Shown here in pieces: positions 33,741 to 48,710 of a stretch of DNA of 61,421 nt (its first letter is position 1; each line of letters starts with the position of its first letter). A program made the translations under genes and the position numbers. Source of the DNA: a virus; IMG/VR virus record IMGVR_UViG_3300041411_000160, positions 1 to 61,421 of that record, one strand, 5' to 3'. Under the pieces are notes generated by a model that saw only the letters and a program-made list of their open reading frames with translations, did no database searches and had not been told where the DNA came from.

Positions 33741-33943
33741 AGACGGACGACCCTCGAACCCATTTTGCCGTAGATCTCATCCATCACGACAAACCGGATG
33801 CTGAGCTTAATGCCCAGCTTATATCCCAGCTTGCGCACGTAGGTGAGGTCTTCAGGCTTAGCCTCGACGAAGAAGGACTCGCCCTTCTTCATGGCCTTCA
33901 TGAGCTTTTCGTGTTGCGCCTTCGTGGCGTCATCGATCTGCAT
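33737..33943 (-). CDS. Hypothetical small protein
   Basis: 68 residues from ATG 33943, which overlaps the upstream stop; GTG 33946 is an alternative. Lys-rich helices (KLMKAMKKGESFFVEAKPED) followed by beta strands. No family recognised. Overlaps the methyltransferase start by 4 bp. Confidence 0.62.
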   Translation of the reverse strand: MQIDDATKAQHEKLMKAMKKGESFFVEAKPEDLTYVRKLGYKLGIKLSIRFVVMDEIYGKMGSRVVRL

Positions 33944-35247
33944 CACAGGTCATCCGGCATGTCGAAGGTGTCGTCGTGCTCTTCGATCGGGTTCATGACT
34001 TCAGCGTGCTCTTCGGTGTCTTCCCACGCGCCGCCGTCATCCTCGAGGTCAGTGTCGCGCTCTTCCTCAGGCGCAGCTTTCTCTTTGCCGCCGTCTTTAG
34101 GCTTAGCCTGCTCGGACAGCGCGTCACCATCAGCCACGGTGCCCAGCTCCGTACGTGGGAGGCAGACGTTGGCTTCATACATGCCGGCCGAGAATGCGAC
34201 CAGACCCTGCATCAGCATCCAGATCTCAGCGACACGGCTGTCATAGCCCGCGCTACCGCGCTCACGCTGTTGCTTCATATCATCGCCGCCGTCGTCGCCC
34301 TCTTCTTCCACGCTGGCCAGAGAGAACGCTTTGACGTCGCCCTTCTTATTCATCTTCGCCCAGACTTTGTGTTTAACCGGTTCGTCCTGGTAGAACATGA
34401 ACAGCAGCTCGGTCGGCTTGAAGTGCTCAGCGTTGAGCAGATCGATGTAGCGCGGCTCGTCGAGGTCGGAGTCGACCACGGTGATCTTCTCCTTCTCGGA
34501 GTTCATCAGAACGGCTTTATCACCCGGGATGAAGTGCCCGCGCGTTTCCTTACTGCGCAGCATAACGTCGCGGAAGAAGCGCTGAAGAGCGTCCTCACTG
34601 ACGTAGGCCGGGATAGTTGGCCATGAGCCAAAGGCCATGCGGATCATTGCGTTGGTCTCTTCAGCCGCTTTCTGGCTGGAGGTGAAGACGTAGCAGTCGT
34701 TTTCCCAGAGCAACACCCAGATACGCGAGCGCTTGATCGGCGCTTTGGTCAGCTCGACGGCGGTCACCTCATCTTTCAGGATGGCCCAATCTTTCTTCGT
34801 GGCGCTGCGCCCTTCACGCTCTTCGAACTGCTGCACGCGCTCCCAGACTTTATCCGCCAGCGAGCTGGACGGCAGCACACGCTCACGCTTCTCAACGCAC
34901 AGCAGGATGCCCGTAGTTCCGACCACTACGTCCAGCAGGCGCTGGGTCATTTCCAGATTGCGGTCATGGTCCATCAGCTCTTCTTCGACCTGACCGATAA
35001 GCGGGTTAACGAAACCCCAGGTACGCCATGACCCGTTCGCCGGATCTTTGGCGCGGTAGGCGCTCAGTTTGCCGTGAGCAGTGTCAGCAAAAGACTGAGC
35101 ACGCTCTTCCGCACCGAGGTTCAGGCCGCGCTCACCGATGTTGAAGTACATGTCCAGGATGGCCGGTACGTCATCGCCGTTGTGGATCTTCTGGCCAATG
35201 CGGTCGAGGTAGTAATGCTGAAACTTATCGAAGCCTTTAATTTTCAT
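33943..35247 (-). CDS. RdgC-like recombination-associated protein
   Basis: 434 residues. Residues about 110-215 follow RdgC closely in pattern: LADKVWERVQQFEEREGRSA, KKDWAILKDEVT, then SSQKAAEETNAMIRMAFGSW and PTIPAY. Host RdgC forms a DNA-binding ring that limits RecA. A phage copy could shape recombination during replication. The C-terminal 80 residues are acidic and low in complexity, ending DDTFDMPDDL, and include GGAWEDTEE. ATG 35247 overlaps the upstream stop. Confidence 0.7.
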   Translation of the reverse strand: MKIKGFDKFQHYYLDRIGQKIHNGDDVPAILDMYFNIGERGLNLGAEERAQSFADTAHGKLSAYRAKDPANGSWRTWGFVNPLIGQVEEELMDHDRNLEMTQRLLDVVVGTTGILLCVEKRERVLPSSSLADKVWERVQQFEEREGRSATKKDWAILKDEVTAVELTKAPIKRSRIWVLLWENDCYVFTSSQKAAEETNAMIRMAFGSWPTIPAYVSEDALQRFFRDVMLRSKETRGHFIPGDKAVLMNSEKEKITVVDSDLDEPRYIDLLNAEHFKPTELLFMFYQDEPVKHKVWAKMNKKGDVKAFSLASVEEEGDDGGDDMKQQRERGSAGYDSRVAEIWMLMQGLVAFSAGMYEANVCLPRTELGTVADGDALSEQAKPKDGGKEKAAPEEERDTDLEDDGGAWEDTEEHAEVMNPIEEHDDTFDMPDDL

Positions 35248-40240: not shown

Positions 40241-40654
40241 TCAGCTGACCCGCGTAACGATTACCTGAAGATAGGTTCGTCCGCTCGAAGTGGTGGTAAC
40301 GGTCGACTCCATCGAGAAGGTGCGGTCGTCAAACTTCTTCGCGTGGCGGATCGACTGGTTGATGGACTGGCGCAGTTTCTCTTTCCACGCCGGGAAGTTT
40401 TCCTGCAGCTCGCCGGCCGTAATGTTGGCATCGATCGGCAGTGATTTAGTGAAGCACTCGCCCACGCTCAGTGCAGTCAGATTGCTCACTACGCTGCCCG
40501 CATGGCTGCGGCCCGGCAGGCCGACATCGAGGTCCGGCGTCATCATCGCGACGGTCAGTGCCTTCGGGTCAACGCGGCGGGTGGTAGAAGCTTTGCCGCT
40601 GGCGTCGCTGCCGGTCTCGGGCAGGTCGAAGGTGTCGTCGTGTTTATCGGTCAT
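40241..40654 (-). CDS. Hypothetical protein, first gene of the leftward early unit
   Basis: 137 residues from ATG 40654 with AGGAAA upstream. The N-terminus MTDKHDDTFDLPETGSDASG is acidic and flexible; the rest is alpha/beta with SINQSIRHAKKFDDRTFSME. The same DDTFD-P string occurs at the C-terminus of the RdgC-like protein. Function unknown; being promoter-proximal suggests abundant early expression. Confidence 0.68.
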   Translation of the reverse strand: MTDKHDDTFDLPETGSDASGKASTTRRVDPKALTVAMMTPDLDVGLPGRSHAGSVVSNLTALSVGECFTKSLPIDANITAGELQENFPAWKEKLRQSINQSIRHAKKFDDRTFSMESTVTTTSSGRTYLQVIVTRVS

Positions 40655-40693
40655 AACGTGTTTCCTGTCTGTTTCGTTTGGGTGTGATGGAAC

Positions 40694-40720
40694 ATTATAC
40701 GCACATGCCGCGTATGTCAA
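40694..40720 (-). promoter_or_regulatory. Sigma70-type promoter of the leftward early unit
   Basis: Minus strand TTGACA (40720-40715), 15-bp spacer, perfect TATAAT (40699-40694). The short spacer is unusual and results from a palindrome (ACATACGCGGCATGT) two bases shorter than in the other members. It drives the genes from 40654 leftwards. Confidence 0.75.
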
Positions 40721-40743
40721 ACGCATTCTTTTCAGCCTGCCAA

Positions 40744-40982
40744 CTTTTTGAAGTACCGGTCAGCGGTGACGAACCTCGATCGCCTGAACGACAACCGGCT
40801 GACTTTCTGAAGTACCAGAATCTCGCAGGTTCGTCCGACAACCGGCAAGGTTTCTGAAGTACCGGGTCTGTCAGTTTTTTCGTTCAACTTTCTCTCAGCC
40901 TGCAAGGTTTCTGAAGTACCGGCTGGCTTTCCGTAAATTCTCGTTGCCTCGATCGACAGCCTGCTAGGTTTTTGAAGTACCG
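40744..40982. repeat. Five iteron-like direct repeats (candidate origin)
   Basis: Five copies of a motif with consensus GGTTTcTGAAGTACCGG. The shared GAAGTACC core is at 40750, 40809, 40856, 40913 and 40974, spaced 59, 47, 57 and 61 bp. Each copy is preceded by CAGCCTGC- or ACAACCGGC-type sequence and GATCG-rich spacers. The block lies between divergent early promoters and has no convincing gene. Iterons in such a place suggest a replication origin or a multi-site operator. Confidence 0.7.
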
Positions 40983-41201
40983 GGTTTTTCTGAACCTTCG
41001 CGCACGTATATAGAGGGATTTGGGCCTGAAAATTCGTGAACCTTAGGCGAAAATGGGTCCGGACTGGCCCGACCAGTGCGAAATCGTGTAAAATCAACGA
41101 CTTAGCTCTGATTATCGGTTTGAGGCTCACCCTGAATTTTTGATAAACCCAGGCGTGGCGCGGCTTGCGGGGCATCGTTGAAAATAGTTGATATAAATCG
41201 T
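40983..41201. other. Non-coding segment between iterons and the rightward promoter
   Basis: About 220 bp without a supported gene. It is more AT-rich near 41000-41050 (GTATATAGAGGGA) and around 41180-41200 (ATAGTTGATATAAATCG), which would suit helix opening next to the iterons. No terminator or RNA gene was seen. Confidence 0.5.
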
Positions 41202-41230
41202 TTGACACATGCCGCGTGTGTCTTTAATAA
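41202..41230 (+). promoter_or_regulatory. Sigma70-type promoter with palindromic operator, rightward
   Basis: TTGACA (41202-41207), 17-bp spacer, TAATAA (41225-41230). The palindrome GACACATGCCGCGTGTGTC (8 of 9 pairs, one T-G) overlaps the -35 box and spacer. The 42987 promoter is identical here. Confidence 0.85.
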
Positions 41231-41279
41231 TTGAGGTCCAGCAGCACACCAAACAACGAAACGAAATAAGGAATTAACG

Positions 41280-42966: not shown

Positions 42967-42986
42967 GCTTAATTGAGATAAACTGT

Positions 42987-43015
42987 TTGACACATGCCGC
43001 GTGTGTCTTTAATAA
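42987..43015 (+). promoter_or_regulatory. Sigma70-type promoter with palindromic operator, rightward
   Basis: TTGACA (42987-42992), 17-bp spacer, TAATAA (43010-43015). Sequence and leader are nearly identical to 41201-41257, so the promoter with its leader looks duplicated. Confidence 0.85.
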
Positions 43016-43064
43016 TGGAGGTCCAGCAACACCCCAGACAACAGACAGACAAGCGAGGCACCAA

Positions 43065-44640: not shown

Positions 44641-45176
44641 ATTGCCTGTAATCCACTCTCACACATACCCCACATAATCCGCGATCCAGGACGAACCCCA
44701 AAAATCGGGGCCATCTGCACCACACATCCCACGTATATCAAAACAACATTATTCCACGCTCCCAGAAGGTGCCCTGCATAGGGGTGCTTAGACATAGATA
44801 TCATTTCACGTATGACACATGCCGCGTGTGTCGTGTGCAGGGGGTGCCAGGACAGGCCCGTATAACGTGCTCAGACATATAAACGGTGTGTATGAGGTGC
44901 CTGAGTGCAGGGTGCTGGGTGGGCGTGTCCTGCTATGTGGGTATGACATATGCAGGGTGTGTCATATAGGGGTGTGTGTGGGCATGGCATGTAATATGGG
45001 TGCATATAGGGGTGCGTGTGGTGTGGTTATGCGAGCTGTACGCTACCCAGACGGGGCGATCTATATGTAGGTAATGCATAGGTAGCGGGTCATGTGGCTG
45101 GGCTGCTCTGCGGGGCGCTGACGGGACTCCGGACAAAAAGCAAAAAGGTACTTCCCAGACCTCTCAGCGGGCCGGG
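44641..45176. other. Non-coding repeat-rich region left of cos
   Basis: About 535 bp with no convincing gene. It contains degenerate copies of the early-promoter palindrome (TGACACATGCCGCGTGTGTC at 44814-44833 and TGACATATGCAGGGTGTGTC at 44944-44963) and recurrent AGGGGTGC / GTGCAGGG words at about 44778, 44834, 44904 and 44954. Composition is G/T-rich. Possible roles are terminase or packaging signals near cos, or relic promoters. Confidence 0.55.
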
Positions 45177-45188
45177 GGTGCGCAGAGC
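45177..45188. other. Putative cos site (12-base cohesive end)
   Basis: The 12-mer GGTGCGCAGAGC lies in an imperfect dyad CGGGG(G)-TGCGCAGAG-CCCCG. From memory, Salmonella phage Chi has 12-base cohesive ends with this sequence; I cannot verify it here. The place fits: a 1.1-kb non-coding gap, with replication genes starting on one side and small early genes ending on the other. If right, virion DNA starts here, not at position 1 of this record. Confidence 0.7.
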
Positions 45189-45758: not shown

Positions 45759-48377
45759 TCACTCCCAAGTGTCTGCGACATCCTTCGCAGCTACCGCGGA
45801 GATCTGGTTTTCAAGGTGTTCACGAACCGCGTCACCATCGACCGTATTTTTGTCCTTCATCCACTTCTCAGGGTTCTTCGCATACACCGTTCCACGCGCT
45901 CCATTTACCCTCGTTACGACACGACCCCGTCCAAGTTTGACATATCCCAGGTCTGCCAAACGGCTCGCAATAAAGCGGTCTGACGGACGCACTTCACGGG
46001 GTATGTGACTGGTCAGGAAGTAGCTGTGGATCAGCTCCGATGTCATGCCTCCGACCTCTTCAGAATCGATAGCCTCACGCACTGCAATACTGAAATCATC
46101 CTGCGCGTTATCGATCATGTCCTCACCCGCCTGCGTCAGCGGAGCGTGGCCACCAGCGTGGTCGAACGTGTCTGAATAGGTCCAGTCTTTGAACCAGAGG
46201 CGGATCTCCCCAGCATGTTTCGTGAACGCTTTCTCGAAGTCACGGAAGAAGTCCGGGTTATCGAAGAGGAACGCTGAGACCTGCTGCTTCGAACGGAAGA
46301 AGCTACGAACCATCAGGAAGCGGCGGTCGTTCTGGCTGATCGGCAGCGCGGCGATGTCGTTGGTGTACATCATCCAGCTGGCGGTGTTCACCTCTTCCAC
46401 GCCTTCCTTGTTCTTACGCTCGACGAATAACGTCTCATTGGTGATCGGCTCTTTAAGGGCGTTGACGACATCGAAGCGATGGCCAGCAACACTGATTTCC
46501 TCGATGACCTTTAAGATTGATCCGCCTTGCCAGCCAGTGAACGATTTGTGTATAACCTGGTTGTTCACGGTGCCGACGTTCTCCATGCCGAGCATGTACT
46601 GCATGAACTTCTTGATGATGGATTTGCCGGAACCCTGGCCACCCAGAATCATCAGGGCATAGGTCATGCGTTTGGTCGGGTTGTTGATCACCCACGCCAG
46701 CCAGTCCATGACGTGCTGAAATTCCACCGGGTCCGGGAACTGCGTTCTGAAAAAGTTGAGCACCACCTCAACTGCCGCCTTACCTTTCTTCGTCAGCTTT
46801 TCAGCCATCACAGGGATCGTGTGCGGCTTGAAAGTGTTGAGCCAGGTGTGACCGTTGTAATAGAAAAACTCTTCCCCCTCGATATTCCTGACAGGCTTCC
46901 AAAGGTGGTTCATGGCCCCATGGTGGCTCGGCAGGTACATCGCACCGTAAACAACCGGCACCGGCCGCAACGACGTTGCGTAGATTTCCGGCGTACAGCC
47001 CAGGTGCAACGTGTGCTGCGCATTCGCGTTATTGAAGGCGTGCGGCACCACCCGCGTCAGGTTCGTCTTATGCATGAAGCAGTTCTCGGTCTCCGCGAAC
47101 ACCCACGGCTGCACCCACTCAGGCGCTTCGAACTGCGTGTGGTCGACCGACAACGCCTGCTTCTTCGTTGAGGCCGGGATCTTCTTACCGGTTAAACGCT
47201 TATATTCGTCACACGCTTTTTCCACGGCGAAATCACGGATGGTTCCCCAGATTGGCGTCTCGCGGAGGCGTGCGGCAGCGGCATCCCATTCCTTCAGGTT
47301 GTCAGCTTGCTCGAATGCCGGAACAATCTTTTGCAGAACGTCCTCTTCCATCTGCACGTCTTCAATCTTGCGCTGGATGGATTTGATAGTGAACGCATGA
47401 CCGCCTGCACGGTTAAACGACCCCTGCTCCCACTTCGTTTCGAAGTAGTCCTCGTCATAGTTATCCGCACGGGATGACCATTCACGGGCGATCTCTTTGA
47501 ACTCGTCCGGCTCACGTTCCGCGTCTTTCAGTGCGGCCAGCACAGGGAACCACTCGCCGTAGTCCTCAGCTGGTGGCAGGTCGGCAATCAAATCTTCGAG
47601 TTCACCGACGGTACCCTGCCATTTCTCTTTGACGTCATCGGCGTCGACCCAATCATCTTCGTCGACTTCCAGGCCTTCGTCCGGACACTCTTCACCACTG
47701 ACCAGCGCGCCACGCGGCGGCGTCTCATTCGGTTTCTCGACAGTCCAGCCCTGCTCGGCGGCGTAACGGTTCATCTCGTCGACAATCTGCCGCGCCTGAT
47801 GAAGGGTGATCACCTCGAGGTCCATCGAAGCGTGCTGGTTCAGCGGGGTATCGACGCTGGTCCACTGGTACGGTTTTTTGGTACCGGGGTGGATCCCGTA
47901 CGCAACAAACTGCTGGCCGGCACCGAGAATTTCGACTGCCTGGCGCTGGCCCCATTCGTCCAGCCACGTCTTCGACTTCACTTTCGAGAACGGTTCGTCA
48001 GCGCGATACAGCAGCAGCACCTTAGGCGCTTTACCGACACGCGTCGGGGCGAAACCGACCAGGGATTCAATGAAGTTGCGCATGTGGCGGGCGGCATCTG
48101 CGTCCGGGCAGTCAACGTCGACAGCCGGGGTGTGCCATGTCCGGATCCCTACGCCACAACGGCGCAGACCGGCTTTGGCCAACCAGCTTTCGATGACGTC
48201 CCGATCGACGGGCATGTTGGCCCAGCCGCGGAACACCGGCGCTTTACCAGCTGCGGGGTGGAGCTCTCTTTCGTCACTGCCTTTTACCGGGACGGTCCAG
48301 TCCGGCGTGGTGATGGGTGTGATGGAATAGCCATTTTCGAACAGGTTGATGGCGTGAGTTCTGATATATTTCTTCAC
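45759..48377 (-). CDS. Primase-polymerase / helicase fusion (P4/D5-like)
   Basis: 872 residues from GTG 48377 with GGAGG upstream. The N-terminal prim-pol domain (about 1-190) has the metal motif VDVDCPD (Asp87, Asp89) and GIHPG with His163. Residues about 250-330 look like PriCT_2 (LPPAEDYGEWFPVLAALKDA). The C-terminal helicase domain has Walker A GGQGSGKS near 580 and the downstream NDRRFLMVRS segment of DUF5906/D5-like superfamily 3 helicases. It would prime and unwind at the phage origin. Transcribed opposite to the rest of the replication block. Confidence 0.88.
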   Translation of the reverse strand: MKKYIRTHAINLFENGYSITPITTPDWTVPVKGSDERELHPAAGKAPVFRGWANMPVDRDVIESWLAKAGLRRCGVGIRTWHTPAVDVDCPDADAARHMRNFIESLVGFAPTRVGKAPKVLLLYRADEPFSKVKSKTWLDEWGQRQAVEILGAGQQFVAYGIHPGTKKPYQWTSVDTPLNQHASMDLEVITLHQARQIVDEMNRYAAEQGWTVEKPNETPPRGALVSGEECPDEGLEVDEDDWVDADDVKEKWQGTVGELEDLIADLPPAEDYGEWFPVLAALKDAEREPDEFKEIAREWSSRADNYDEDYFETKWEQGSFNRAGGHAFTIKSIQRKIEDVQMEEDVLQKIVPAFEQADNLKEWDAAAARLRETPIWGTIRDFAVEKACDEYKRLTGKKIPASTKKQALSVDHTQFEAPEWVQPWVFAETENCFMHKTNLTRVVPHAFNNANAQHTLHLGCTPEIYATSLRPVPVVYGAMYLPSHHGAMNHLWKPVRNIEGEEFFYYNGHTWLNTFKPHTIPVMAEKLTKKGKAAVEVVLNFFRTQFPDPVEFQHVMDWLAWVINNPTKRMTYALMILGGQGSGKSIIKKFMQYMLGMENVGTVNNQVIHKSFTGWQGGSILKVIEEISVAGHRFDVVNALKEPITNETLFVERKNKEGVEEVNTASWMMYTNDIAALPISQNDRRFLMVRSFFRSKQQVSAFLFDNPDFFRDFEKAFTKHAGEIRLWFKDWTYSDTFDHAGGHAPLTQAGEDMIDNAQDDFSIAVREAIDSEEVGGMTSELIHSYFLTSHIPREVRPSDRFIASRLADLGYVKLGRGRVVTRVNGARGTVYAKNPEKWMKDKNTVDGDAVREHLENQISAVAAKDVADTWE

Positions 48378-48655
48378 TCAATCACCTCCCCGTCTTCGTC
48401 GAGATTCATCAGGTCTGGCGCCATCAGCCAGGTGGCTTTTATACCGGAACCAGAAACTTTCTCCGAGAGCGACGTTGCAACACGGTAAGTCATCTGGCCC
48501 GCCACTTTCGCCTTCAGCAGCGTGCTGTAGTTGATGCGGGCGATTTTAGACAGGCGGTACAAAGAGCCATCCGGATGTGCGTAGACACTCATGATCTGAC
48601 ACATGTAGTCGAGCCGCATATATTTGTCGTTGCGTGCCCATTCCGGAAAGCGCAT
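48374..48655 (-). CDS. Small HTH-like DNA-binding protein
   Basis: 93 residues from ATG 48655 with GAGG upstream; a TTG at 48670 is less likely. The segment LYRLSKIARINYSTLLKAKV fits a helix-turn-helix of the Cro/XRE or YdaS type. It overlaps the primase-helicase start by 4 bp, so the two are co-translated. The tandem TGTCACAC repeats 56 bp upstream (48711-48726) are a possible binding site. It may regulate its own operon or help replication start. Confidence 0.6.
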   Translation of the reverse strand: MRFPEWARNDKYMRLDYMCQIMSVYAHPDGSLYRLSKIARINYSTLLKAKVAGQMTYRVATSLSEKVSGSGIKATWLMAPDLMNLDEDGEVIE

Positions 48656-48710
48656 ATTTTCGTTCCTCAAAAGTCGTCCCTACGCAAGCGCGCAGAGAAC
48701 GCCATCTTAC

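Follow-up and report, generated by a model that had tools for sequence, protein, structure and literature searches.

The replication origin of phage lambda consists of O iterons inside the O gene and serves the loading of host DnaB. Phage satellites with primase/Rep genes (SaPI, E. coli PICIs) have iteron origins, which in PICIs lie immediately 3' of rep and have an AT-rich stretch between two sets of iterons (PMC6092414). In pRN1, a small regulator gene lies beside the primase-helicase gene (orf56/orf904) and the stem-loop origin has no iterons; the primase of P4 alpha is of the Toprim type (PMC4234260). For the chi-like phages (Casjensviridae), a large and mostly flagellum-dependent family, our literature search, which covered few subscription journals, returned no mapped replication origin and no description of the repeats, of an origin or of an experiment on the site reported here.

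We analyzed a viral record of 61,421 bp with a 127-bp terminal overlap (hereafter the window, meaning the whole stretch). By its gene content, the phage is assigned to the Casjensviridae: the prim-pol, PolA, Enc34-type SSB, SNF2 helicase and terminase genes, the gene order and the chi cos were all found. Its nearest relatives by sequence comparison are Cronobacter phage JC01 and Salmonella phage SLP-22, two members of this family whose prim-pol proteins are 62–65% identical to that of the window. An earlier sequence-only reading had described the genome as a 61,294-bp circle, and the overlap does close the contig in this way, but an exact copy of the 12-nt cohesive end of phage chi (PMC4342425) suggests that the virion contains linear cos DNA, with the genome probably cut at this site. 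About 30 bp from the probable cos, AAGTACC followed by TTTTTG was found on the minus strand (45147–45154), a possible packaging element; two copies of AAGTACCTTTTTGAA, 132 bp apart, lie at a similar distance from the prim-pol gene of XAP3. The left early operon also includes an RdgC-like exonuclease gene (33943–35247, minus strand) that is present in most relatives.

The sequence-only reading had proposed that five repeats, 47–61 bp apart in a non-coding gap between divergent early units, mark an origin or a multi-site operator. The repeats proved real, but the unit then described, a GAAGTACC-type copy, is only part of a longer one. The array consists of five copies of a 27-base repeat at 40733–40983, all on the plus strand (Table 1), each built in two parts as CARCCKG-N10-GAAGTACC, that is, CA[AG]CC[TG]G, 10 bases and GAAGTACC, with copy-to-copy spacings of 59, 47, 57 and 61 bp. 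GG precedes TTT in three of the five copies and CCGG is present in four. Matches to GAAGTACC numbered 9 in the window against 1.26 expected, five of them inside 232 bp, and in 20,000 mononucleotide shuffles of the gap two or more copies never occurred. In a whole-window scan, no other spaced array with at least four copies was detected. As in iteron origins, several direct repeats of the same orientation occupy a non-coding stretch. Helical phasing of the spacings was rejected as weak (R 0.28, p ~0.03), several periods having been tried on lineages that are not independent.

Table 1. Coordinates of the repeat array and associated features in the window
Feature	Position	Strand	Detail
Iteron 1	40733..40759	+	CAGCCTG-CCAACTTTTT-GAAGTACCGG; GAAGTACC part 40745-40759
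Iteron 2	40792..40818	+	CAACCGG-CTGACTTTCT-GAAGTACCAG; GAAGTACC part 40804-40818
Iteron 3	40839..40865	+	CAACCGG-CAAGGTTTCT-GAAGTACCGG; GAAGTACC part 40851-40865
Iteron 4	40896..40922	+	CAGCCTG-CAAGGTTTCT-GAAGTACCGG; GAAGTACC part 40908-40922
Iteron 5	40957..40983	+	CAGCCTG-CTAGGTTTTT-GAAGTACCGG; GAAGTACC part 40969-40983
Non-coding divergent gap	40655..41279		625 bp; holds the array; counterpart gap in relatives
Leftward early promoter	40694..40720	-	TTGACA 40720-40715, 15 nt, TATAAT 40699-40694
Rightward early promoter	41202..41231	+	TTGACA-18-AATAAT
Operator-like dyad, leftward promoter	40702..40718		in promoter spacer
Operator-like dyad, rightward promoter	about 41205..41222		ACACATGCCGCGTGTGT
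Further CACATGCCGCGTGTGTC-type dyads	42991..43007, 44816..44832
IHF-consensus site	41092..41104	+	perfect match to WATCAANNNNTTR, sole one in window
GTATATAGAGGG	41005..41016	+	possible (weak) counterpart of relatives' AATTTTTRTAGA box
DUF7609 gene	40241..40654	-	PF24582, phrog_6647; first leftward gene; companion of array; candidate iteron binder
Prim-pol/helicase gene	45759..48377	-	872 aa; Pfam Prim-Pol, PriCT_2, helicase (DUF5906); candidate initiator
98-aa gene	48374..48670	-	adjoins prim-pol gene; relatives annotated HTH or transcriptional regulators
Probable cos	45177..45188	+	GGTGCGCAGAGC, exact copy of chi 12-nt cohesive end

The gap separates the leftward DUF7609 gene from the rightward early gene, and the outward promoters previously suggested to flank the array look real; the leftward one was read from the sequence, its 15-nt spacer being missed by the promoter scanner. 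Dyads of the CACATGCCGCGTGTGTC type are found in both early promoters and at two further sites, in promoter spacers or promoter-like stretches, and possibly represent an early-regulon operator. The stretch 41185–41257 is duplicated at 42970–43042 with 89% identity. AT-rich DNA had also been noted beside the repeats. Such a stretch exists but is modest: the AT-richest 100 bp of the gap, at 41178, reach 64% AT, which is within the top 0.2% of the genome but is not its richest stretch, and the array itself is ~50% AT. Among accessory sites, those matching the IHF consensus were enriched: 12 genomes together had 9 within 600 bp of their arrays against 0.78 expected. A perfect site lay near the array in 8 of the 12, and by eye further ones were seen in Erwinia-type contigs not among these genomes. 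In several relatives, AATTTTTRTAGA boxes cluster in the gap, which has 23 of the 40 matches where 0.37 would be expected (most boxes are scored twice by the pattern); the strict pattern had no match in the window.

We compared first the gaps of JC01, SLP-22, Enc34, PibeRecoleta, Siskin and Redjac and then scanned the whole records of 19 relatives. The counterpart gap holds five copies in each of the first five phages, and the Redjac copies were split by the repeat finder into families of three or four. Repeats of like build were found in the counterpart gap of some two dozen family members, almost all of the related phages examined, so that the proposed conservation check was clearly positive; as expected of an iteron origin, the repeats are conserved across the replicon family, with the exception of Proteus phage Saba. 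The shared build, CARCCKG-N10 and a right half in spaced copies of one orientation beside the leftward early promoter, was detected in the six phages above, XAP3, Soft, MA12, Inception, Kokobel1, Nazgul, Bhz60 and IMG/VR contigs, and in pEp_SNUABM_08 for the right half only. In JC01, SLP-22, Enc34, PibeRecoleta and XAP3, as in the window, it forms the sole spaced array with at least four copies. Spaced arrays of relatives contain 2–5 copies, and tandem arrays contain up to about seven when counted with permissive patterns.

The left half of the unit is conserved across lineages and the right half is lineage-specific, nearly all copies within one genome carrying an identical right half. Most members have AAGTAAG as this half, and the window has AAGTACC. 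Other versions are AAGTGA (Erwinia), AAGCG (Bhz60), AAGGGCA (several distant contigs), AAGTCC (contig L278), GATGCG (L290) and CAGGGGTG (Phobos, where the left half is looser). In distant members, with prim-pol proteins ~30% identical, the unit is repeated in tandem with a period of 26–31 bp and resembles classical iterons. Upstream of its own DUF7609 gene, Erythrobacter phage R22L has a different sequence, 24 bp long, in five tandem copies. Arrays without the family build that a mechanical search returned in some distant loci were left out of the comparison. Aeromonas phages have two or three copies, placed differently relative to the prim-pol gene. In AVP3 (L052-L054) and A18P4 (L055-L058), the array and early genes have moved relative to this gene, and in A18P4 a leftward promoter-like stretch lies near each of two small arrays. 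In the SLP-22 record (L005 4596-5205), the small ORFs XCX10874.1 and XCX10873.1 are annotated over the array and are probably spurious. Among viral contigs, the repeat-pair pattern occurred in 12, each of which has chi-like markers; in bacterial and archaeal genomes it gave 8 matches, in unrelated organisms. Relatives among the viral contigs came from an alignment query, single-protein scans having returned none. A GAAGTACC-pair scan of viral contigs was discarded, as many of the matches listed had spacings in steps of 9 and look like coding repeats.

The absence of an obvious initiator beside the array, as stated by the sequence-only reading, holds in that no recognizable one adjoins it, but two candidates can be named. 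The first is the prim-pol/helicase, the gene of which lies 4.8 kb to the right. Foldseek with its model (43 sequences, pLDDT 87.8) returned the NrS-1 primase, AsfvPrimPol and the SaPI5 primase-helicase (7ola), with resemblance to the NrS-1 primase helicase region (6k9c, E 2e-18), and a profile search returned NrS-1 and pRN1 ORF904. The model shows a winged-helix order of helices and strands at ~aa 761–833, and a C-terminal winged helix is predicted on this reading of predicted secondary structure. The second candidate is the adjacent DUF7609 protein, homologues of which were found by iterated profile in most genomes examined; where a genome showed both homologue and array, the two almost always adjoin. 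Its model consists of a strand, a long helix and two strands, and profile and fold searches with it gave no significant match. The 98-aa protein is a possible binder of the operator dyads. No candidate protein stands out for excess change on the window branch. Given an origin, we put the chance that the prim-pol/helicase is its initiator at about even; the DUF7609 protein is a distinctly less likely choice, and some other protein less likely again.

Taken together, the array is fairly likely to be the replication origin of the family; this estimate also covers the case in which the initiator doubles as a regulator of the early promoter. An origin accounts for direct repeats whose right halves change in concert, for IHF-consensus sites and for the set of replication genes; a right half that changes as a set in each genome is what would be expected were one protein to read all copies. 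It is further supported by the widespread shared build together with the tandem units of distant members, by the concentration of AATTTTTRTAGA boxes in the gap of relatives and by the resemblance of the prim-pol/helicase to NrS-1, SaPI5 and pRN1 ORF904; satellites with primase/Rep genes have iteron origins. A phage-made initiator would bind the five two-part repeats, IHF would bend the DNA at its site ~110 bp to the right of the array and neighbouring DNA would melt; the prim-pol/helicase would then be loaded and prime synthesis, which the phage's own family A polymerase, SSB and SNF2-type helicase would continue. Control of the adjacent early promoter may be a second role of the initiator. 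In this scheme, the repeats, their conservation, the concerted right-half change, the IHF-consensus enrichment, the replication gene set and the predicted winged helix are computed; the binding, bending and melting steps, helicase loading and direction are inferred. We would suggest only tentatively that the family represents an undescribed origin class, in which the left half-site is fixed and the right one is exchanged as a set between lineages. The exchange would follow the DNA-binding part of the initiator, be it the prim-pol/helicase or the DUF7609 protein, and would give each lineage its own replication specificity.

Several observations count against an origin. In many genomes the minimum of the cumulative GC skew, proposed earlier as a check, falls within 1–3 kb of the array, but the skew of individual blocks tracks the coding strand and not the side of the array; without a replichore signal, GC and AT skew were dropped as origin evidence. 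The AT-rich stretch is modest, no DnaA box was found in the window gap, perfect IHF sites are missing in 4 of the 12 genomes, that of PibeRecoleta lies inside the first codons of the rightward gene, and the spacings in enterobacterial members (31–168 bp) are wide for classical iterons. The lack of the array in Saba and its closeness to the leftward -35, both taken up below, count on this side too.

It is also conceivable, if rather unlikely, that the array is not an origin but a multi-site control element of the divergent early promoters, through which a phage protein, most simply DUF7609, represses or activates its own leftward promoter. A multi-site operator would account for the contact with this promoter: in the window, 12 bp separate one end of the array from its -35, and in relatives too the array ends near it. 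DUF7609 constantly accompanies the array, at 0.5–2.3 kb even in the rearranged Aeromonas phages (2.3 kb in AVP3). It would also account for the loss in Saba, where the counterpart gap is short and without an array although the promoters and genes of the region are retained and the prim-pol is 69% identical to that of Kokobel1. No sure replacement was found in Saba, nor, by eye among the matches listed, a clear candidate for a gene that tracks the array and is missing from Saba. A large non-coding stretch around the Saba cos (L045-L048, rotated 13.4–15.0 kb) carries the repeats TGCGGATCGGGAG and GGTTAAAAAATGA, which are a possible substitute. On the other hand, both promoter spacers already have a separate operator-like dyad, so that there seems little need for another operator of five sites spread over 250 bp, the IHF-consensus sites and AATTTTTRTAGA boxes are more in keeping with an origin, and the DUF7609 model has no recognizable DNA-binding fold, though this is no proof against binding. 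Between the two functions raised by the sequence-only reading, we favour the origin. Direct repeats plus an IHF site also resemble lambda cosB, but that type of site adjoins cosN whereas the probable cos lies 4.2 kb from the array, and no partition gene was recognized among the proteins scanned, a subset of the window's, so that a packaging or partition-type site bound by a terminase or ParB-like protein is very improbable.

The array narrows the search for an origin to an exact 250-bp stretch that can be tested by comparison across the family, and its lineage-specific right half offers a natural route to the initiator via repeat swapping. Compared with the early divergent region of other Casjensviridae, the window has the same gene order, promoters, cos sequence and repeat array, and differs in its right half (AAGTACC against AAGTAAG). 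It shares with plasmid and satellite iteron origins the direct repeats in a non-coding gap, an own primase-helicase and accessory elements alongside; unlike PICI origins, it has one repeat set, widely spaced, 4.8 kb from the prim-pol gene and with no clear melting region. As in lambda ori, a few direct repeats would be bound by a phage initiator, but the array is non-coding and the phage has its own prim-pol/helicase. P4 alpha and pRN1 ORF904 are likewise primase-helicases with a C-terminal winged helix, predicted in the window, and a small regulator gene lies beside the primase-helicase gene in pRN1, as may be the case in the window; the repeat array of the window stands against the stem-loop origin of pRN1.
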